Program-made: the position numbers and the translations under genes
DNA from: Alloscardovia macacae
GTDB lineage: Bacteria > Actinomycetota > Actinomycetes > Actinomycetales > Bifidobacteriaceae
Assembly: GCF_002259705.1 (NCBI RefSeq)
Contig: NZ_MWWT01000001.1
Span: forward strand, 62,001 to 126,000
DNA: 64,000 nucleotides
Direction: 5' to 3'
Notes under the pieces: model-generated
What the model was told of the DNA's origin: nothing
The model's database searches: none
What the model saw: only the letters and a program-made list of their open reading frames with translations
Shown here: piece by piece, positions 1-8,355 of the stretch
Layout of the letters: each line of letters opens with the position of its first letter
Position numbering within the stretch: position 1 is the first letter of the stretch

Positions 1-1
1 C

Positions 2-109
2 GCAGGCGACGCCGTGGATAAGGTCTACCGCCAGGCCATCGTGGCCGCAGGCGCTGGCTGCCAGGCAGCACTCGATGCTCAGGCGTATCTCGTAGAGCAC
101 GCAGAGTAA
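2..109 (+). CDS. trxB: Thioredoxin reductase, C-terminal end (partial)
   Basis: The window opens inside a gene whose last 35 codons read [20 protein letters not shown] and then a Gln/Ala-rich helix ending at TAA. This is the typical FAD-binding C-terminus of bacterial thioredoxin reductase (AGD...YRQA...AAG-GC-AA), the flavoenzyme that reduces thioredoxin with NADPH in the cytosol. The 5' part lies outside the window, so the CPxC motif cannot be seen. trxB beside the rsmG-parA-parB cluster is a known actinobacterial arrangement, which supports the call. A rho-independent terminator follows 28 bases after the stop. Confidence 0.85.
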
Positions 110-136
110 GTTTTTTAGGATACCACGTTACACGAC

Positions 137-180
137 GCGCGAGGCTTTCTCTTTTCTGAGGAGCCTCGCGCTTGTGTCTT
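137..180 (+). terminator. Rho-independent terminator of trxB
   Basis: A perfect 10-bp stem (GCGCGAGGCT at 137-146 with AGCCTCGCGC at 162-171) is followed by a T-rich tract. It lies just after trxB and faces the end of the convergent minus-strand gene at 181-333, so it may serve both sides. Confidence 0.8.
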
Positions 181-333
181 TTAAAGATTACGGATGGAGA
201 TGCGCTCATCCTTCGTAGTCTGATGATTCTTCTTCAGGTACTTCACTGCAGCCATAGTGAGCACCCCTAATGCCCCGAGAATGAAGACTACCAGGAGTAT
301 ACCGAAGATACATCCAAACACAGCTCCTATCAT
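181..333 (-). CDS. Small single-pass membrane protein (50 aa)
   Basis: The reading frame gives a 50-residue peptide starting MIGAVFGCIFGILLVVFILG, so nearly the whole first half is one hydrophobic helix. It is followed by AAVKYLKKN and a charged tail (KDERISIRNL). The ATG overlaps the stop of the DUF2089 gene by 4 bases (ATGA type), which indicates translational coupling, and an AAAGGGG Shine-Dalgarno lies 8 bases upstream. No family is recognised. Co-translation with a putative regulator suggests a membrane partner or sensor, but that is inference. The alternative 60-aa frame across the same DNA lacks this coherent hydropathy. Confidence 0.6.
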   Translation of the reverse strand: MIGAVFGCIFGILLVVFILGALGVLTMAAVKYLKKNHQTTKDERISIRNL

Positions 334-620
334 GATTCCTGCCCCTTTCTGTACTCATCGATGAGTACTTTTGCAGTATCGATGTCATATTTTTCTTCTA
401 TAGCGAGCCTTTTCACGAGAAGGACGAAGTCATCATCGTGCTCCTGATCAGTGAGCTGAATCTTTTCCCTCACTTTATCGAGTCTGGCGCGAATAGTGGG
501 ATACGAGACCTGGTACAGACTCGCCATCGTCTTCAGAGAGCCCGAAGACAGCAGAAAATTCCGGATGAATGCATGATCATCCTCGGATAACACTGCGAAC
601 CACCGTGGAATTTCTGCCAT
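330..620 (-). CDS. DUF2089 family protein, putative HTH regulator
   Basis: The 96-aa protein has the DUF2089 pattern: an N-terminal PRWFAVLSEDDHAFIRNFLL stretch, then SGSLKTMASLYQVSYPTIRARLDK, which reads as a helix-turn-helix, and a C-terminal SHOCT-like acidic/hydrophobic region. Family members are small, often sit beside genes for short membrane proteins, and are suspected transcription factors; none of this is proven here. The start has a GGAAGGAG Shine-Dalgarno. Seventeen bases upstream lies a 27-bp AT palindrome that is a good candidate operator for autoregulation and for the divergent peptide genes at 762-991. Confidence 0.75.
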   Translation of the reverse strand: MAEIPRWFAVLSEDDHAFIRNFLLSSGSLKTMASLYQVSYPTIRARLDKVREKIQLTDQEHDDDFVLLVKRLAIEEKYDIDTAKVLIDEYRKGQES

Positions 621-636
621 GACTCTCCTTCCCGAT

Positions 637-663
637 ATTTAATATTATTAAATAATATTAAAT
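637..663. promoter_or_regulatory. 27-bp AT-rich palindrome, candidate operator
   Basis: The 11-bp arms ATTTAATATTA (637-647) and TAATATTAAAT (653-663) are perfectly complementary around a 5-bp centre. The element lies between the divergent DUF2089 gene and the small-peptide genes. Its GC content is close to zero in an otherwise GC-balanced region, and it continues into a TATA-rich stretch to about 680. A binding site for the DUF2089 protein is inferred from position only. Confidence 0.5.
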
Positions 664-761
664 ATATTTTATATATAAGAAGAACTTTTTGTCAATTCAC
701 CATCCACCGAAGCCATAAAGAGATAGAATGTAAGTACTTTCATCCAGAAAAGGAGGCCATA

Positions 762-881
762 ATGGCGTGGGCTATAGCGGATATAGCATTATCTGTCATT
801 CTCAGTTTCGCAGCTTTTATGGGCGGATGGTATACCGTGAAGGCATATCTCACTAAGAGAACTGCTAAGGAGGAGAAGTAA
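762..881 (+). CDS. Small single-pass membrane protein (39 aa)
   Basis: A short frame with a strong Shine-Dalgarno (AAAGGAGG, 5 bases before ATG) encodes 39 residues. The N-terminal hydrophobic helix reads AIADIALSVILSFAAFMGGW and the basic tail ends TKRTAKEEK. It is the first of two tandem peptide genes that share a transcript; its own last codons (AAGGAGGAGAAG) supply the ribosome site for the next gene. No homologous family is recognised. The arrangement could reflect a type I toxin, a regulator of a membrane enzyme or a secreted peptide. Confidence 0.55.
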   Translation: MAWAIADIALSVILSFAAFMGGWYTVKAYLTKRTAKEEK

Positions 882-883
882 TC

Positions 884-991
884 ATGTGGTGGTGGATAGA
901 AAAATTACTCATCATCGTGAGTTTTTTCATTTCCGGAGGATTCTCCGCTTATGGAAGTATGACATGGGGAAAATTATCTGAGAAAAAATAA
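884..991 (+). CDS. Small Trp-rich membrane peptide (35 aa)
   Basis: The frame starts two bases after the preceding stop and encodes 35 residues: MWWWIEKLLIIVSFFISGGF, then a short tail ending KLSEKK. Three N-terminal tryptophans followed by a hydrophobic helix suggest an interfacial membrane peptide. Its ribosome site lies inside the end of the upstream gene (AAGGAGG), so the two are translationally linked. A strong bidirectional terminator begins at its stop codon. Function unknown. Confidence 0.55.
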   Translation: MWWWIEKLLIIVSFFISGGFSAYGSMTWGKLSEKK

Positions 992-1024
992 AGGCGAGGT
1001 CCACGCATACGCGAACCTCGCCTT
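991..1024. terminator. Bidirectional terminator between peptide genes and parB
   Basis: A perfect 10-bp stem, AAGGCGAGGT (991-1000) with ACCTCGCCTT (1015-1024), has A and T ends on either side. It can end transcription both from the plus-strand peptide genes and from the minus-strand parAB operon. Confidence 0.85.
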
Positions 1025-1036
1025 CAGAGCGGAATA

Positions 1037-2191
1037 TTAGTTCAGCACGTTTAGAATCCTGTCCAGCTCCTCCTGCGAGGTGAAGCTGATCTCTATACGT
1101 CCGCGCTTCGCTGAACCCTTGATAGCTACGTGCGTGGAGAAGCGAGACTCGAGACGCTCCACGAGTTCTGGGTTCTCCCACGGATTCGTCCGCACAGCGC
1201 GCGGCTTCTTCTCCGAGTCGCTCATGCGTGCCACGAGCTCCTCCACGGAGCGCACAGACAGGCCTTCCTTCACTATCTTCTCAGCCAGCTTTTCCATGTC
1301 CTCCTGGTTCTGCAGGCTCAGCAGAGCACGTGCATGTCCAGCAGACAGTTCACCGGCCGCCACACGCTTCTGAATGCCCCCAGGAAGCTGGAGAAGACGC
1401 AGGGTGTTCGTAATCTGTGGGCGAGACTTCGAGACGCTCTGAGCGAGCTTTTCTTGCGTCAGACCGAACTCTTTAAGCATCTGCTGGTATGCAGCTGCCT
1501 CTTCGAGTGGATTCAGTGCCACACGGTGCAGGTTTTCCAGCAGAGCATCGCGCAGCATGTCTGTATCTGCCGTGGTCTTCACGATGGCTGGAATCTTCTC
1601 CAGCTGAGCCAGACGGCTCGCACGCGTACGGCGCTCACCCATGATGAGCTCATAGTGGTGACCATCATGCGTCTGAGGATCCACTTCGCGCACCACGATA
1701 GGCTGGAGCACACCCACTTCTTTAATGGAGTTCGAGAGCTCCTGAAGCTCCTGCTCTTCGAAGACGTGACGTGGCTGGTATTCATTCGCCACGATGTCAT
1801 CGAGACGCACTTCTGTGAGGTATGCACCCTTCACCGGACGCAGGCCAGAGATGACCGTAGCACCCTCTGTAGAGGACAGCAAGGCATCCAGCGCATCCGT
1901 AGACTTATAGTGCGGGATAGAGTCCTGCAGCGATGGGATCGCTGGGCGCTCTTCTTCCAGGGAATCAGCAGCAGAGCCCCTATCCGAGCCCATACCAGGC
2001 ATCTCGATGGCTGGCATAGCTGCACGCTGAGTCTTCGTCTTCTTCACAGGCTTATTAGCTCCTTGTGCTGGAGAGGATGCGGCGGATGCAGAAGCAGCTA
2101 CAGCTGCCTCATTCACTTCTTCTTCGCCGGATTCATTAATCGTAGGGAAGAGTGCTCCGAGGCCTTTTCCGAGTCGAGAACGTCCTGGCAT
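1037..2191 (-). CDS. parB: Chromosome partitioning protein ParB
   Basis: This 384-aa ParB/Spo0J protein binds parS sites near the origin, loads as a CTP-dependent clamp and recruits condensin and ParA. Visible parts are: a low-complexity N-terminus starting PGRSRLGKGLGALFP; the ParB nuclease-like domain with EYQPRHVF and the CTP-binding ELIMGERRTRASRL motif around residue 185; the helix-turn-helix LTQEKLAQSVSKSRPQI around residues 245-262; and a C-terminal dimer domain. The ATG lies one base after the parA stop, so the two form an operon read away from oriC. Confidence 0.95.
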   Translation of the reverse strand: MPGRSRLGKGLGALFPTINESGEEEVNEAAVAASASAASSPAQGANKPVKKTKTQRAAMPAIEMPGMGSDRGSAADSLEEERPAIPSLQDSIPHYKSTDALDALLSSTEGATVISGLRPVKGAYLTEVRLDDIVANEYQPRHVFEEQELQELSNSIKEVGVLQPIVVREVDPQTHDGHHYELIMGERRTRASRLAQLEKIPAIVKTTADTDMLRDALLENLHRVALNPLEEAAAYQQMLKEFGLTQEKLAQSVSKSRPQITNTLRLLQLPGGIQKRVAAGELSAGHARALLSLQNQEDMEKLAEKIVKEGLSVRSVEELVARMSDSEKKPRAVRTNPWENPELVERLESRFSTHVAIKGSAKRGRIEISFTSQEELDRILNVLN

Positions 2192-2192
2192 C

Positions 2193-3185
2193 TTACTGCT
2201 CCTTCTTCAGGCGGTCTAACAGAGTGAATATGTGTGTGCTCTTTTTATTAATCTCGAGAGCTGCTTCGCGGTACGCTATGGCACCCATTCCGCGCGGATC
2301 ATACGCGATGACGGACTGGGCGAAGCTCGGCGCTTCCGCTATGCGCACCGCGCGTGGGATGGTAGTCTCGAGCAGAAGTGACGCGTAATGCTGCCCCACT
2401 TCCTCATACACTTCGTGGCTCAGCAGTGTGCGCTTGTCGTACATGGTGATGAGGATGGCCGAGATGACCAGCTCGCGGTTCATGCTCTTCTGGACGAGCT
2501 GAATGGTGCGCAAAAGCTGGCCGAGGCCTTCCAGAGCGTAGTACTCTGCCTGGATAGGGATGACCACTTCGTGCACAGCGCACAGCGAGTTCAGTACGAG
2601 CAGTCCCAGGCTTGGTGGGCAGTCGATGATGACGTAATCGTACTTCTTCTCACTGGACTCGAGGTACGCGCGAAGCTGGTCACGCAGCAGGTAGACGCGG
2701 TTTTCCAGCGAAGATATTTCGAGTTCAGCACCCGAAAGATCGATAGTGGACGGCACCACGTCGAGGTTCTCGAAGTCAGGGCATACCTGCAGCGCCTCGG
2801 CTATGCTGGCGCGGCCTTCGATGACGTCGTACAGAGACAGGGTCTGCGAGTCATGCTGAGCTCCGAGAGCAGTGGAAGCATTGCCCTGAGGATCCATATC
2901 CAGAACGAGCACGTTCATGCCAGCCTCAGCCAGCGCTGCCGCCAGATTCACGGACGACGTGGTCTTTCCCACGCCACCCTTCTGATTCGCCACAGCGAGG
3001 AATCGCGTGGACTGCGGCCTCTCGAACGTCTGCGAAGCCAGCTTATCGATGCGGTTAATCTCTTCAGTAATGGACGCGCCTACCTCAGACTCAGGCGAAT
3101 CCTTAAAAATGCGGTTAATAACGTGCGAGGCAGATTCGAACTGAGGGTCGTCGGTCGGGAATGTTTCACGTGAAACATCACTCAT
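2193..3185 (-). CDS. parA: Chromosome partitioning ATPase ParA
   Basis: This 330-aa Walker-type ATPase segregates origins by binding DNA non-specifically and being stimulated by ParB. The deviant Walker A motif KGGVGKTTSSVNLA is at residues 69-82, the DMDPQGN motif follows, and VIIDCPPSLGLL is the Walker B-like region. The N-terminal extension of about 60 residues is longer than in minimal ParA and is common in actinobacteria. The start ATG has a GGAGGT ribosome site. Codons 4-8 (VSRET) are encoded by a perfect parS site, so partition complexes can form on the parA gene itself. Confidence 0.95.
   Translation of the reverse strand: MSDVSRETFPTDDPQFESASHVINRIFKDSPESEVGASITEEINRIDKLASQTFERPQSTRFLAVANQKGGVGKTTSSVNLAAALAEAGMNVLVLDMDPQGNASTALGAQHDSQTLSLYDVIEGRASIAEALQVCPDFENLDVVPSTIDLSGAELEISSLENRVYLLRDQLRAYLESSEKKYDYVIIDCPPSLGLLVLNSLCAVHEVVIPIQAEYYALEGLGQLLRTIQLVQKSMNRELVISAILITMYDKRTLLSHEVYEEVGQHYASLLLETTIPRAVRIAEAPSFAQSVIAYDPRGMGAIAYREAALEINKKSTHIFTLLDRLKKEQ
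3162..3177. promoter_or_regulatory. parS: parS centromere site inside parA
   Basis: The 16-mer TGTTTCACGTGAAACA is the perfect palindromic parS consensus that ParB recognises in most bacteria. It overlaps codons near the start of parA (reading VSRET). It is about 3.4 kb left of the first oriC box cluster. Confidence 0.95.
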
Positions 3186-3198
3186 GGTCTACCTCCAC

Positions 3199-3906
3199 TT
3201 ATTTCTTATTCACTACGAGTACGCGCGTCGGCTCGAGGCCTTCGCCTACAGGCGCTTCATACACATGCGGATGCACTGCCCCATACTTTTTCATCTCTTT
3301 GGCAGCCTTCTCCAGCTCCGCTTCCACGCTCCTGCCCTTCAGAGTTACTAATTTACCACCTGAAGCAAGCAGTGGGAATATCATACCCGTAAGCTTAGTC
3401 ATAGGAGCCACAGCACGGCACGTAGCGATGTCAAACCCTCTAAAACCGCGAGGCAGCAGGCTTTTCACATTCCCCGCCACATGTCCCGGCGTCACTTCCT
3501 GCGCACGCGCGCGCACCACCGTCACGTTCGTCAAGCCCAGCTCAGCGACCACTTCATGCAGCCACTCCACGCGGCGTTCCATAGGCTCCACGAGATACAC
3601 AGGAACATCCGGCATGCACGCCGCCACGATGATTCCCGGGAAGCCGCCGCCGCTGCCGATGTCGCCGATGATAGGCTCGCGACCGCCCTTCACCGAGCGC
3701 AGATCCTCCATCTCCTCCCAGAGGAATGGCACGAGCGCAGCCGAGTTCAGGATGTGGCGCTCCCAGATAATGTCCACATCCCGCGGTCCTATGATACCGC
3801 GCGGCTCACCCTCCTTCTCCAGCTTGGCATGAAAAAGGGCGAGCGGTTCGTACGCCTCTGCGAGCACCTCGCGTGGCAGGGGCGATGAAGAAAGAAGATC
3901 AGTCAT
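3199..3906 (-). CDS. rsmG: 16S rRNA (guanine-527-N7)-methyltransferase RsmG
   Basis: A 235-aa protein of the RsmG/GidB family, which methylates N7 of G527 in 16S rRNA using S-adenosylmethionine. The SAM-binding loop IGDIGSGGGFPGI lies around residue 80. The family signature RDVDIIWERHILNSAALVPF precedes it and VTVVRARAQEV follows, as expected for the Rossmann fold. It sits between jag and parA in the conserved origin-left operon. Loss of this gene gives low-level streptomycin resistance in other bacteria (family knowledge). Confidence 0.93.
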   Translation of the reverse strand: MTDLLSSSPLPREVLAEAYEPLALFHAKLEKEGEPRGIIGPRDVDIIWERHILNSAALVPFLWEEMEDLRSVKGGREPIIGDIGSGGGFPGIIVAACMPDVPVYLVEPMERRVEWLHEVVAELGLTNVTVVRARAQEVTPGHVAGNVKSLLPRGFRGFDIATCRAVAPMTKLTGMIFPLLASGGKLVTLKGRSVEAELEKAAKEMKKYGAVHPHVYEAPVGEGLEPTRVLVVNKK

Positions 3907-3916
3907 ACTCTCGATA

Positions 3917-4498
3917 CTACTCGTTCGTCTCGGCTGTGTCTGGGGTGTCCTCGAAGTCCTCGTCGAGCTCGTCTACGTCCGGCTTATCCCCAGCATCTGC
4001 CGTGTCTGCTGGACGCTGGTAGACGGTGACGTACCGCTTCGGATCGACGCCATGCGAGCGGGACTTCAGGCCTTCTTCGCGGATGACGTCGTGGACTATC
4101 TTTCGCTCGTACGAGTTCATAGGCCGCATGTCCACCGGTTCGCCGGTGTCCAGGACTTCCTGAACGGCGTCGAGCGCGAGGTTTACGAGGCGTTCGCGGC
4201 GCTTGCGCAGATATCCGTCCACGTCCACGATGACGCGCGAATGCTCGCCTGTGGCCTGCTGAACGGCGAGGCGTGTCAGATGCTGCAATGCGCTGACCAC
4301 CTGTCCGTCGCGCCCGATAAGGTGTCGGATATCCGTATCATCGTCCGCTACTATCTGCACGACAGGGTGCCCCTGGCGCACGCCCATCTCGATGTCGCCG
4401 TCATAGTCGGCTATGTCGAGCAGCTCCTCCAGGTAGTCTGCCGCGATGTCAGCTTCTTCGTTGAGCTGATCGATGTCGACTTCAGTGTTCTGATTCAT
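3917..4498 (-). CDS. jag: Jag/KhpB-like RNA-binding protein (KH-R3H)
   Basis: A 193-aa protein with the KH-like segment (LIGRDGQVVSALQHLTRLAV) followed by an R3H segment (YLRKRRERLVNLALDAV ... MRPMNSYERKIVHDVI). That is the order in Jag/KhpB, an RNA-binding protein encoded downstream of yidC. It lacks the long N-terminal Jag_N domain of Firmicutes, as is usual in actinobacteria. The C-terminal 30 residues are strongly acidic (PDVDELDEDFED). An AAGGAG ribosome site precedes the ATG. Confidence 0.9.
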   Translation of the reverse strand: MNQNTEVDIDQLNEEADIAADYLEELLDIADYDGDIEMGVRQGHPVVQIVADDDTDIRHLIGRDGQVVSALQHLTRLAVQQATGEHSRVIVDVDGYLRKRRERLVNLALDAVQEVLDTGEPVDMRPMNSYERKIVHDVIREEGLKSRSHGVDPKRYVTVYQRPADTADAGDKPDVDELDEDFEDTPDTAETNE

Positions 4499-4610
4499 AA
4501 TGCTCCTTACATTACTTTCAGTTTACCGCCGGATAAGTATATCGACGCGCGATGCCTCGTAAGAAGCACCGCGCTCGTTTCGTTCTTTTTTTTATGTCAA
4601 TTTTTCCGTT

Positions 4611-5606
4611 TTAGGAGCGCTTCTTTTTGCGCGATGGCTGGTAGCGCTGCGTGCCCCCATTTTTCTTCAGTTCTGCTTCAGCTTCCTTAGCTTTCTGCAG
4701 CTCTTCTTCCTCGATGGATGGCAGGCCTTCCCTCTGGCGGCGCTCCTGCTCCTTCGTGTAATCGCGCTTTTCCTTCGCCTCATAAGCCGCAGATCCTGGG
4801 GTCGGGAAATTCTCTACCTGGTAGATCATCTGAAGCAGCGTCCACGTGTTATTCGTAGCCCAGTAGACGAGTACTGCGAACGGGAATGCCACACCAGAGA
4901 AGATGTACATCACCGGGAAGATGAAGGCCATAATGCGCTGCGTGTTATACTGCTGAGTTCCGATGGACGCCTTCGGCATATTACGACGCAGGCTGTAGTA
5001 CTGCGAAAGGAACATGGTCACGCACATGTAGGCCACAAACAGACCGATGATGATCTTTCCGGAGCCTTCTGCGCTCGTAAAGTTCGTGGAGATCTTCGTC
5101 CCGAAGACCGTGGTGTGCATAATCTCTTCAGCCACCGTCTTATCGAATCCACCGAGGGCATCTCTCGTACCATTCGCTATAGGCTGGATGGCGTAAAGAA
5201 TGTAGAACAGGGCCATGAACACAGGGCCCTGGATAAGGGATGGGACACACGAGCCCATAGGATTCACATTATTATCCTGGTAGAGCTTCATGGTCTCGCG
5301 GCTCTGAGCTTCGCGAGACGCAGCATCCGTCTTTCCCTTATACTTGTTCTGTATCTTCTGCATCTTCGGCTGGAGAGCCTGCATACGGCTCATGGACGCC
5401 ATCTGCTTGGCGAAGAATGGCAGAATGATGATGCGCACCGTAATGGTCAGAAAGATGATGGACAGTACCCAGGCAAATCCTGGCCCGGACTGCATCCCCA
5501 GTGCCACGAAGATACGGTGGAAGAACACCATAACCTGCGTCATGACCCATTCCAGTGGGTACAGGATTCTATAAATAAATCCGAAGAAACCTTGATCGAG
5601 ATTCAT
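4611..5606 (-). CDS. yidC: Membrane protein insertase YidC
   Basis: A 331-aa YidC/Oxa1/Alb3 insertase, which folds proteins into the cytoplasmic membrane alone or with SecYEG. There is a first transmembrane helix near residues 35-60, a charged cytoplasmic hairpin with QALQPKMQKIQNKYKGKTD, the conserved PMGSCVPSLIQGPVFMALFY helix, and further helices (IIIGLFVAYMCVTMFL and IMAFIFPVMYIFSGVAFPF). The long basic tail ending QRYQPSRKKKRS probably contacts ribosomes. The gene follows yidD by 4 bases. Confidence 0.95.
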   Translation of the reverse strand: MNLDQGFFGFIYRILYPLEWVMTQVMVFFHRIFVALGMQSGPGFAWVLSIIFLTITVRIIILPFFAKQMASMSRMQALQPKMQKIQNKYKGKTDAASREAQSRETMKLYQDNNVNPMGSCVPSLIQGPVFMALFYILYAIQPIANGTRDALGGFDKTVAEEIMHTTVFGTKISTNFTSAEGSGKIIIGLFVAYMCVTMFLSQYYSLRRNMPKASIGTQQYNTQRIMAFIFPVMYIFSGVAFPFAVLVYWATNNTWTLLQMIYQVENFPTPGSAAYEAKEKRDYTKEQERRQREGLPSIEEEELQKAKEAEAELKKNGGTQRYQPSRKKKRS

Positions 5607-5610
5607 ACTT

Positions 5611-5922
5611 TTATTCTTCCTCTCCGTACGGATGGTACTGAGGTTCTATGCTCGGCTCTTCGTGAGCTGAAGACCACGAGAATCTATACCAGACCGAAAA
5701 CTTTTTCGGTACGTCATCGATGCCGCCACGTGACCAGGGTCTGCAACGCAGAAGCCTGAGAATGGCCAGTACACTGCCACGAAATGCACCGAAGCGCTCC
5801 ACAGCAGTGAGAGCATACGTAGAGCAGGTGGGATAGTACTTACAGGATGGCAGTGTCCGAGCAGAAATCTGCGTGCGGTACCACTGAATCATCCGTATCA
5901 CTACCCTACTCGCCCAGCTCAT
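5611..5922 (-). CDS. yidD: Membrane protein insertion efficiency factor YidD
   Basis: A 103-aa protein with the YidD signature: IQWYRTQISARTLPSCKYYP, TCSTYALTAVERFGAF and RLLRCRPWSRGGIDDVP. The family assists YidC-dependent insertion at the inner membrane face. It begins two bases after the rnpA stop, keeping the conserved rpmH-rnpA-yidD-yidC order. Length is normal for actinobacteria. Confidence 0.95.
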   Translation of the reverse strand: MSWASRVVIRMIQWYRTQISARTLPSCKYYPTCSTYALTAVERFGAFRGSVLAILRLLRCRPWSRGGIDDVPKKFSVWYRFSWSSAHEEPSIEPQYHPYGEEE

Positions 5923-5924
5923 GC

Positions 5925-6323
5925 TCAGTCTTTCTGAGATTCTACGATGCTGGCTATCTTCGTCAGCGCCTTTTCTACCTGCGGCTCGAGATCACTAAAG
6001 GGGACGCTGTAGCACCCCGGTTTGGCTCTCATTACACAGTCGATGCCATATCCCGCTGGGAGGAGATGCTCGTACCGGCGTGCGAGTACGCGAAAACGGC
6101 GCTTCACCGTATTTCGCTGAACCGCATGTCCCACAGACTTCGACACTGCCAGCCCCAGACGATGTACTGCCGTAGAACTGACTAAGTCGTCCATTTGATT
6201 CTTACTATCTGAGCTCTGTGGCGTAGACGTAACAAGGAAATGAACGACTATATCGTGTGTGGAAACGCGCTGGCGCTTCCGTAAAACTGCAGTAAAGTCC
6301 TGGTGACTCTGTAACCGCTCCAC
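5925..6323 (-). CDS. rnpA: Ribonuclease P protein component
   Basis: The protein subunit of RNase P, which matures tRNA 5' ends. The RNR signature is clear in LGLAVSKSVGHAVQRNTVKRRFRVLARR. The GTG at 6323 is preferred because the resulting N-terminus, VERLQSHQDFTAVLRKRQRV, matches the start remembered for bifidobacterial RnpA. The frame stays open upstream to an ATG at 6413, but that start would overlap the end of rpmH by 62 bases and add a poor leader; still, no clear Shine-Dalgarno precedes the GTG. An insert around residues 38-46 (TSTPQSSDSKNQ) is unusual. Confidence 0.9.
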   Translation of the reverse strand: MERLQSHQDFTAVLRKRQRVSTHDIVVHFLVTSTPQSSDSKNQMDDLVSSTAVHRLGLAVSKSVGHAVQRNTVKRRFRVLARRYEHLLPAGYGIDCVMRAKPGCYSVPFSDLEPQVEKALTKIASIVESQKD

Positions 6324-6351
6324 TGTCAGGCGCTTTTTTCGCGCGTATCGC

Positions 6352-6486
6352 TTATGCAGAGAGGGACTTGCGGCCCTTTGCACGACGACGGTTAATAACT
6401 GCGCGACCCGCACGGGTACGCATGCGCAAACGGAAACCGTGCTTCATATGACGACGACGGTTGTTTGGCTGGAATGTACGCTTCAT
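6352..6486 (-). CDS. rpmH: Ribosomal protein L34
   Basis: A 44-aa, extremely basic protein beginning [20 protein letters not shown] and ending with [12 protein letters not shown], which is bacterial L34 with no doubt. It is the first gene of the minus-strand operon leading away from oriC. The ATG is preceded by GGGAGCGTTAACT on the minus strand. Confidence 0.97.
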
Positions 6487-6588
6487 AGTTAACGCTCCCA
6501 TATGTAGCCGTGACCATCACGGCTTCCTTTTATTAAGTCAATCTCTACAACCTTACTTGAAACCCTGTACCAGAGCAAGTTCACCCCG

Positions 6589-6816
6589 TTATCCACGCGT
6601 CGTACACAAGTTACCCACACATTATCCACCATGTGCATAACTTCCTCATTTCATGCACATTTAAAAATTACACCCGTGTAGTTATGCACACAAAGGCTTG
6701 TGAATAAGCGGATAACATTGTGGATAACTTTATCCACTTATCCACAAATTACACCCGTGTTATTCACAAACCCTTATTTTCAACACACGTGCTTGTGGAT
6801 AACTTACTGTGGATAG
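6589..6816. other. oriC: oriC, DnaA-box cluster I (rpmH-dnaA)
   Basis: The intergenic region holds a dense set of DnaA boxes (TTATCCACA or near matches): plus orientation at 6589, 6611, 6622, 6682, 6730, 6738 and 6760, and reverse orientation (TGTGGATAA type) at 6699, 6719, 6794 and 6808. The boxes at 6730 and 6738 overlap by one base. TTACACCCGTGT occurs around 6668 and 6749, a repeated spacer element. This is one half of a bipartite origin that flanks dnaA and probably also autoregulates dnaA. Confidence 0.93.
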
Positions 6817-6873
6817 TGTAAACTGTGGTAGGCGTGAAAAAGATGCGCGGAATTTTTCGTTCGAGGAGAGGCT

Positions 6874-8355
6874 ATGGCACAGAACATGGATGCTACTGAG
6901 GTCTGGAATCAGACCTATCAGTTGCTGCTTGATCAGCCGCTGGACCTCACCTTACGTGAAGTGGCCTGCCTGAATGACATTAAGGTCACAAATATCTTCG
7001 GCACCATGCTGGTGCTGACCGTCTCGAGCGAATCCACACGTAGCGTCGTGGAAAAGAAGCTGCATTCTGCTCTTACTCAGACTTTTTCTCAGGTTATGGG
7101 CCAGGCCATGACCTACGTGGTTCAGATAGATCCACAGGTCCTTGAGCAAAACGCTCAGAATGTAAATGTACCAGTCCCCCAGCCTGTACCACAGAACATC
7201 GCGCAGGTGCGTGAACCTGCGCCTCCAGTGGCAGCACCGAGGATAGTAGAGCCGGAGATAGTCCCTCCGAATGCCGCTCTCGACGTTCCGCAGAATACGC
7301 GCGACGAGGTCACGCACCTGAATAAAAGCGCGCGCTTCGATAACTTTGTTCCAGGCGACTCGAACCAGTTCGCGAAGTCTATAGCCTTCGCCACGGCTGA
7401 GCGTCCAGGCTTCGAATATAACCCACTGTTTATCTATGGCGGGTCGGGGCTCGGAAAGACGCACCTGCTGAACGCCATCGGAAACCAGGCGCTGCTTATT
7501 AATCCGCGTCTGAAGGTGCGCTACACGAATTCTGAGGAATTCACGAACGAGCTGGTCATCGCTCTGGGTAATAACGCGAGCAGCCGCCGCGCGGAAATGG
7601 TGGAATTTAACCGCCGCTACCGCGGAGTGGATATCCTCCTGGTCGATGACGTGCAGTTCATCGCAGGACGAGATACCACCGTCGAAGCGTTCTTTAATAC
7701 CTTTAATGAACTCTATGAACAGGGTAAGCAGATAGTCCTCGCCTCAGATGTTCCTCCGAAGAACCTGAAGGGACTTCCAGACCGCTTAATCTCACGCTTT
7801 AGCCAGGGCCTGCCGGTAAGCATCGACCCGCCATCGCACGAGCTGCGCGTAGCTATCCTGCGTATGAAGGCGAAGGCTCAGCACATCGATATTCCTATGG
7901 AAGTGCTGAATCTTATCGCAGAAAAGGTCACGGATAATGTCCGCGTCCTCGAAGGTGCGCTCACGCGTATCTCCGCTATGGCGAGTTTGAGTAATCAGAT
8001 TATTACGAAGAATCTGGCAGAACAGACTCTGAAAGACTTCGCGAATTCCACGGTGGAGATTACTCCTACGAATATCATCACTTTCGTGGCGAAGTATTAT
8101 AAGCTTACGTTCGAGGACATCGTCGGATCCTCGCGCACGAAGAACGTAGCGCAAGCACGCCAGGTGGCTATGTATCTGTCCCGAGAGCTCACATCTATGT
8201 CTCTCGTGGACATCGGATCCACCTTTGGCGGCCGCGACCACTCGACTGTGATGCATGCCTGCCGTAAGATTTCTGCAGAAATGCAGGAAAATCCAGAGAC
8301 GTATACGGCTGTAACAGAGCTGACCACGCAGCTGAAGCAGGGAAACGGCTTCTAA
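6874..8355 (+). CDS. dnaA: Chromosomal replication initiator DnaA
   Basis: A 493-aa AAA+ initiator that binds the flanking DnaA boxes and melts the origin. Domain I is at residues 1-85, a proline-rich linker (VPVPQPVPQNIAQ) follows, then the AAA+ domain with Walker A GGSGLGKTHLL at about 189-199 and Walker B VDILLVDDVQF at about 251-261. The C-terminal DNA-binding domain ends with GGRDHSTVMHACRK near residue 451. The start ATG has a GAGGAGAGG ribosome site. Boxes immediately upstream suggest autoregulation. Confidence 0.98.
   Translation: MAQNMDATEVWNQTYQLLLDQPLDLTLREVACLNDIKVTNIFGTMLVLTVSSESTRSVVEKKLHSALTQTFSQVMGQAMTYVVQIDPQVLEQNAQNVNVPVPQPVPQNIAQVREPAPPVAAPRIVEPEIVPPNAALDVPQNTRDEVTHLNKSARFDNFVPGDSNQFAKSIAFATAERPGFEYNPLFIYGGSGLGKTHLLNAIGNQALLINPRLKVRYTNSEEFTNELVIALGNNASSRRAEMVEFNRRYRGVDILLVDDVQFIAGRDTTVEAFFNTFNELYEQGKQIVLASDVPPKNLKGLPDRLISRFSQGLPVSIDPPSHELRVAILRMKAKAQHIDIPMEVLNLIAEKVTDNVRVLEGALTRISAMASLSNQIITKNLAEQTLKDFANSTVEITPTNIITFVAKYYKLTFEDIVGSSRTKNVAQARQVAMYLSRELTSMSLVDIGSTFGGRDHSTVMHACRKISAEMQENPETYTAVTELTTQLKQGNGF

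Follow-up and report, generated by a model that had tools for sequence, protein, structure and literature searches.

A short DUF2089 regulator, its upstream palindrome and a small membrane protein form a conserved module beside parB in Alloscardovia macacae

Introduction

The DUF2089 domain is widespread but has no known function. In Alloscardovia macacae, a gene encoding a short DUF2089 protein lies between trxB and parB, together with a palindrome and three reading frames for small membrane peptides, which raises the question of whether these elements act as one unit and, if so, what that unit does. A preliminary description of the window (the whole 64,000-nucleotide stretch of DNA analysed here) had read them as a single compact locus that could serve as a membrane-stress sensor, a toxin/antitoxin set or a bacteriocin-like unit. 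All of the features that it claimed (the DUF2089 gene, the three peptides, the palindrome and the trxB and parB flanks) are present, and the observation itself was confirmed; the interpretation placed on it was partly supported by the comparisons reported here.

Results

Two divergent gene pairs between trxB and parB

The 900 bp that extend from the trxB stop (position 109, plus strand) to the parB stop (position 1037, minus strand) hold two divergent gene pairs. The leftward pair consists of the DUF2089 gene (330-620, minus strand) and a gene for a 50-aa peptide with a single transmembrane segment (181-333, minus strand), which overlap by 4 nt (ATGA). The rightward pair encodes membrane peptides of 39 aa (762-881, plus strand) and 35 aa (884-991, plus strand), separated by a 2-nt gap. 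By eye, an AGGAGG precedes each of these two frames (at 751-756 and 868-873), in agreement with the strong ribosome sites noted earlier, and because of these sites and the tandem layout we consider both frames credible genes.

A terminator had also been counted as part of the locus. The hairpin at 989-1026 (minus strand) carries a T-run that points towards parB, and a second hairpin, found by eye at 137-171, carries one that points towards trxB; because of these directions, the two are best read as the terminators of parB and trxB, respectively, which places the first outside the locus proper. An Rfam scan of positions 1-4000 gave no match up to E 1, and no transporter gene adjoins the locus.

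Of the four other genomes of the same genus, three have parB next to trxB and lack the block between them, suggesting that it was either inserted in the window's species or lost in the others. The fourth genome has a different neighbour at this position, by eye an oxidoreductase-like frame.

A short DUF2089 regulator and its relatives

The 96-aa protein matches the Pfam DUF2089 family (PF09862) with an E-value of 1.6e-16 and 60.2 bits, against a cut-off of 33.4, while the model of the SHOCT-like C-terminal region (PF22746) scores 25.4, just below its cut-off of 27. The protein starts at the helix-turn-helix (HTH) region and has no zinc ribbon, and Pfam, a 70-row alignment and the structural model together define it as a short form that lacks this N-terminal element. 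AlphaFold2 predicted six helices (pLDDT 87.5, pTM 0.55), and the model weakly resembles the HTH domains of sigma region 4 among PDB folds (best E 0.23); a sequence search of the PDB returned nothing below E 0.1.

Scanning genome contigs, we confirmed 206 DUF2089 relatives and retained the 80 best. Those most similar to the window's protein among these 80 come from Bifidobacterium sp. N4G05 (63% identity) and from seven Gardnerella-type records (58-60%), and the rest are mostly from Clostridia, together with five records titled Methanocorpusculum. A tree of 76 DUF2089 rows likewise places N4G05 and Gardnerella closest to the window, although it rests on few columns, with many unresolved forks and unsettled bootstrap values. 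Within the window's family, the regulator occurs in 30 of 189 genomes and 2 of 16 genera. Among 394 genomes of the class, 40 match the DUF2089 profile at E-values up to 0.001, most of them partially, with the window scoring 140.7 bits and the next best match 53.8 bits.

A palindromic operator-like site is conserved upstream of DUF2089

The preliminary description had reported a 27-bp palindrome at 637-663. The palindrome exists, but it is longer, spanning 31 bp (635-665) with perfect 15-nt arms and a 1-nt spacer. It lies directly downstream of a promoter-like site on the minus strand, TTGACA-18-TAAAAT (666-695; -35 TTGACA at 695-690, -10 TAAAAT at 671-666), which would serve the left pair. Three promoter-like sites were found in all, compared with 1.5 in shuffled sequences, and the one of the DUF2089 operon matches the promoter pattern at 11/12 positions.

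In the DNA upstream of the relatives' DUF2089 genes we observed a shared pattern, TTTAATnnnATTAAA, often doubled and located around the -35/-10 region. The window's palindrome contains two overlapping matches to this candidate operator, TTTAATAATATTAAA and a copy with one mismatch, the best of them matching 12/12 positions 32 nt upstream of the DUF2089 start. Scoring was possible in 79 of the best 80 of the 206 loci, the other one offering fewer than 100 bp of upstream DNA. At least 10/12 positions were matched upstream in 73/79 loci, compared with 42 of 4388 control stretches taken from these loci, and all 12 were matched in 38/79 loci and in none of the 4388 controls; the mean best score was 11.13, against 8.49 in shuffled AT-rich upstream DNA of the same loci. 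The pattern was first spotted by eye in the very loci that were counted, and independent loci therefore offer a better test.

We thus turned the sites into a matrix of 67, from which the window, six loci scoring below 10/12 and six extra Gardnerella copies were left out. With this matrix the two overlapping sites of the window's palindrome score 19.7 and 17.1 and rank first and second in the entire 64 kb, where the next site scores 7.2. Of 12 plasmid stretches carrying DUF2089, 11 were scanned (L114 was omitted, as its frame is not traceable), and in 10 of these 11 the best site of the stretch falls at most 80 bp upstream of a DUF2089 gene. The margin is small in L130 (11.2 versus 10.8), L110 carries other high-scoring sites far off (19.1 and 18.3), and the sole exception is pA501, the C. 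jeikeium bacteriocin plasmid, whose best match is 7/12. Moreover, in all 26 loci of the family that lie outside the genus, the operator is the best site of a 3-kb stretch and sits 36 to 158 bp upstream of the gene; 14 of these loci, from Gardnerella (9) and N4G05-type genomes (5), were already represented in the matrix, and the other 12 are new.

Within the 1.89-Mb genome of the window, TTTAATnnnATTAAA occurs without mismatch in one place, the palindrome. Allowing one mismatch adds two further places, the same number as for a control pattern, and a genome-wide regulon, which we considered as a candidate, is not supported by these counts.

In the five Methanocorpusculum-titled records (L058, L070, L071, L072 and L080), operator-like repeats stand directly before the DUF2089 start codon. 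No TTGACA was seen by these repeats, suggesting that their retention serves the regulator and not a bacterial promoter; the archaeal origin of the records is taken from their titles and from a 541-aa PheT-like neighbour in one of them. Four of the five carry a membrane ORF after DUF2089, apparently frame-shifted in one, and L058 has no partner ORF.

A coupled membrane partner with a conserved C-terminal tail

In 79 of the best 80 of the 206 loci, the start of a membrane ORF falls within -35 to +60 nt of the DUF2089 stop, and in 30 of the 80 it overlaps DUF2089 by 4 nt, as in the window. Both the length of these partners (54 to about 155 aa in the 80 loci) and their number of helices differ widely, and most partners are longer than the window's and multi-helical. 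What they share is a C-terminal tail with the consensus DKMNIQDL, detected by a strict pattern in 73/79 loci of this best-80 set. The ends of L041 (SRIQDL) and L098 (SRIKDL) fall outside the strict pattern; the partners of L036, L070 and L104 look frame-shifted; and the partner ORF assigned to L034 (396 aa, no Shine-Dalgarno sequence, SD) is probably false, with the DNA before its DUF2089 gene encoding ELEKMNLQDL.

The tail of the window's 50-aa partner, ERISIRNL, is identical to the consensus only at the I and the L, and three of its eight residues differ conservatively. The final L is retained in 7/7 short partners that were aligned, and in a 37-row partner alignment the last six residues hold one of the two invariant and two of the four nearly invariant columns. 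A partner is present in 26/26 family loci outside the genus (24 detected by script, two from reading frames) and ends in DL in 25 of them, the remaining one (L192) ending in KLMDE. Six partners were searched against Pfam and NCBIfam and none received a name over cut-off, while the DUF2089 control did match Pfam. For a 107-aa partner from Clostridia, AlphaFold2 predicted four helices (pLDDT 89.3), the last of which runs into the tail, and this model matched no PDB fold (best E 0.82). In the literature accessible to us, searches on DUF2089, alone and in combination, found neither the operator nor the tail described.

Of the remaining four genomes of the genus, three also encode a DUF2089 protein, located elsewhere in the genome and 44-48% identical to the window's. 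In these three genes (L003, L004 and L005) we found neither an operator nor a recognised partner. It thus seems that operator and partner are retained or lost as a unit, both being present in 26/26 family loci outside the genus. The expectation in the preliminary description that the palindrome stays with the gene therefore holds for these 26 loci and fails for 3/3 same-genus relatives. The DUF2089 proteins of L003 and L004 additionally bear a C-terminal extension.

Neighbourhoods and possible mobility of the pair

DUF2089 relatives occur on 81 plasmid records, and in Gardnerella the cassette is found in varied neighbourhoods within a rearranged, repeat-rich region; both observations are consistent with a mobile cassette. 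Among 50,697 phage records we found no DUF2089, and contigs of IMG/VR contained one relative.

Several other features of these loci were observed. The Gardnerella loci L026-L032 contain many copies of a palindromic repeat about 48 bp long (for example at 4766-4816 and 5476-5527), adjoining the ends of gene cassettes whose order varies among genomes. A Priestia plasmid (L133) carries two copies of the pair, at 1685-2256 and 6989-7569, each with its own operator, and a partner from a Priestia plasmid ends in DRIELKNL. Two further plasmids, the lactococcal pMRC01 and pSICJ18-1, carry the pair divergent from a PadR-family regulator gene (L109, 4436-5580; L110, 4421-5565).

The divergent 39- and 35-aa peptides stand apart

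The 39- and 35-aa peptides each carry a net charge of +2, contain Trp and have no leader. Searches of Pfam, NCBIfam and PADLOC returned nothing for them, PHROGs gave weak matches only, and none of the known leaderless-bacteriocin families in the databases searched was matched. The best non-self match of the 39-aa peptide (E 0.018, among 121 family genomes) and that of the 35-aa peptide (E 0.04, among 189 family genomes) both lie inside long frames and were taken as chance. A single match to the divergent peptides among the 394 class genomes (E 0.008) has internal stops. In plasmids, no match to the 39-aa peptide was found, and three to the 35-aa peptide at E 5-10, one of them an unannotated hit in Subdoligranulum, were also attributed to chance; the single match in viral contigs, to the first part of the 35-aa peptide, was rejected, as it continues into an unrelated frame. 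Searching the best 80 of the 206 loci for small membrane ORFs with a strong SD, we found no tandem like the window's near DUF2089, and the ORFs recovered in these 80 loci were mostly sub-frames of partners or chance-looking frames. The matrix scan also detected no second operator on the side of the promoter region that faces these two genes.

The preliminary description had treated the three peptides as alike. We do not retain a single family, since the conserved tail is present only in the 50-aa peptide, and the other two lack it and align poorly. Conservation of the frames divides in the same way, being wide for the 50-aa partner, with no convincing match to the 39- and 35-aa peptides among the searched genomes and plasmids. 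The four genes fall into two units. One is the conserved module of palindrome, DUF2089 and 50-aa peptide; the two divergent peptides, apparently species-specific as judged from these searches, are separate from it. The latter could be effectors, leaderless-like peptides or mere neighbours.

Discussion

A model for the operator-regulator-partner module

At the level of sequence comparison, what is established is a coupled pair of DUF2089 and membrane protein, a conserved promoter site and a conserved tail. Conservation of both site and partner supports the earlier view of a membrane-linked regulator with the palindrome as its likely operator. We propose, giving it about an even chance of being right, that the DUF2089 gene and its 50-aa partner form an autoregulated sensor and immunity operon for membrane-active peptides. 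In this model, DUF2089 would bind TTTAATnnnATTAAA, probably as a dimer, and when bound would cover the -10/start region and repress its own operon, while the cytoplasmic tail of the partner may contact DUF2089. The arrival of a membrane-active peptide at the membrane would change the state of the partner, such that DUF2089 leaves the DNA; more partner would then be made, and the partner itself may protect the cell, as DdD does against enterocin DD14. This autorepressed sensing and immunity reading draws on the immunity conferred by DdD, on a review of aureocin A70, and on the DUF2089 genes of bacteriocin clusters, including that of pA501.

Alternatively, the module may be a general envelope-stress switch of the Psp/Lia type, which senses any membrane disorder and which bacteriocin clusters have borrowed. 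DUF2089 proteins with a zinc ribbon, an HTH and a SHOCT-like region pair with Toastrack, LiaI-LiaF-TM or PspC and, in the accessible part of the source, are proposed to transduce membrane signals (PMC11237479). Furthermore, most of the DUF2089 plasmid stretches examined carry no bacteriocin gene next to the pair; as far as they are annotated, pA501 alone has one beside the module. However, the short form has small private partners and not Toastrack or PspC, the genome holds one local operator and hence shows no wide regulon, and protection is attributed to DdD itself in the available text of the DD14 report (PMC13262744). We regard this alternative as somewhat unlikely.

It is improbable, in our judgement, that the entire locus forms a small leaderless-bacteriocin system, with the 39- and 35-aa peptides as its two-peptide bacteriocin, DUF2089 as regulator and the 50-aa peptide providing immunity. 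Such a system would fit the gene content, which resembles the enterocin DD14 core as far as that cluster is described in the text available, the coupled, leaderless and cationic Trp-containing peptides, and the lack of the block between parB and trxB in three same-genus genomes, as expected had it been acquired. Against this, the 39- and 35-aa peptides look membrane-spanning, with maximum moments of 0.24 and 0.29, compared with 0.63 for the amphipathic A53-like peptide of pA501 (net charge +5), and they have no convincing relatives. Moreover, the window's genome, which is 95% complete, contains no match to bPH_2 (PF03703), including next to the locus, which argues against an ordinary exported leaderless bacteriocin; a transporter gene next to the locus is likewise missing.

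A toxin-antitoxin-like pair, with the membrane peptide as self-toxin and DUF2089 as autoregulating antitoxin, would account for two translationally coupled genes behind an autoregulation-like operator and for relatives on plasmids and in rearranged Gardnerella neighbourhoods, but it is improbable given that most loci encode a longer, multi-helical partner, that multicopy DdD restored full resistance with toxicity not reported in the accessible text (PMC13262744), and that DUF2089 survives without a recognised partner in three same-genus genomes; we found no direct evidence for the toxin/antitoxin set suggested earlier.

Returning to the sensor and immunity operon, a broader version of this proposal is that short DUF2089 proteins and partners with DKMNIQDL tails constitute a portable, as yet unnamed operator-regulator-immunity cassette against membrane-active peptides that moves among Bacillota, Actinomycetota and methanogens, and that here adjoins minimal two-peptide effectors of a new single-helix family, without a dedicated exporter. 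Taken as a whole, this broader version is unlikely, and we offer it as speculation. The value of the finding lies in the operator-regulator-tail module, for which the comparison yields a regulator, a specific operator and, in the tail, a candidate contact peptide.

Comparison with known systems

Psp/Lia-like DUF2089-Toastrack operons, as far as the source describes them, resemble the window in having an HTH with a SHOCT-like region and membrane-linked partners. They differ in their zinc ribbon and large multi-domain partners, neither of which is seen in the window, where the 50-aa partner has no Pfam match to Toastrack, LiaF-TM or PspC.

Free-standing pairs from Gardnerella and Bifidobacterium (L025-L032, L164-L188) share with the window a DUF2089 gene and an operator downstream of TTGACA, and the nearest of them also an ATGA-coupled, single-TM partner of 56-58 aa. 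Unlike the window, they have other neighbourhoods in which no divergent peptide pair was seen, and in several Bifidobacterium genomes the partner is about 110-180 aa long, in contrast to the window's 50 aa. On plasmid pA501 (L132), a gene for a short DUF2089 protein of about 93 aa likewise precedes one for a small membrane protein whose tail is related, but the operator is absent, the tail is degenerate (EMEKIDRQIS), and bacteriocin and transporter genes are present. Within the stretch 1935-8132 of this plasmid, DUF2089 and the membrane protein are accompanied by genes for an aureocin A53-family bacteriocin, a PH-domain protein and an ABC ATP-binding protein.

Clusters for leaderless bacteriocins, in the available portions of their descriptions, support the bacteriocin lead of the preliminary description. 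DUF2089 is ddC in the enterocin DD14 cluster (PMC7332713) and BawC in the bawcin cluster (PMC10707071), the thucin cluster contains it as well (PMC9484092), and each of these clusters also has a small membrane protein. According to the accessible part of a review, full immunity to aureocin A70 needs AurI together with a co-transcribed putative regulator, orfA (PMC10376788).

In Enterococcus faecalis 14, as in the window, a DUF2089 gene (ddC, 89 aa) is followed by a small membrane protein (DdD, 90 aa), with two short peptide genes nearby (44 and 43 aa); this likeness is one of gene content and description. DdD is described as having a prominent cytoplasmic helix. Unlike the window, DD14 is a ten-gene cluster with PH-domain and ABC transporter genes, and DdD has three TM domains. 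The 2026 report on DD14 (PMC13262744), in the text accessible to us, terms the regulation of leaderless bacteriocins poorly understood and describes DdD as an immunity protein with no characterised homologue: ddD could be deleted only in the absence of the bacteriocin genes, expression of the ddC-J operon was lower without them, and DdD was proposed to bind the bacteriocin, with ddC given no role. The present comparison links this newly described immunity protein to a cassette found in many gut, vaginal and food bacteria.
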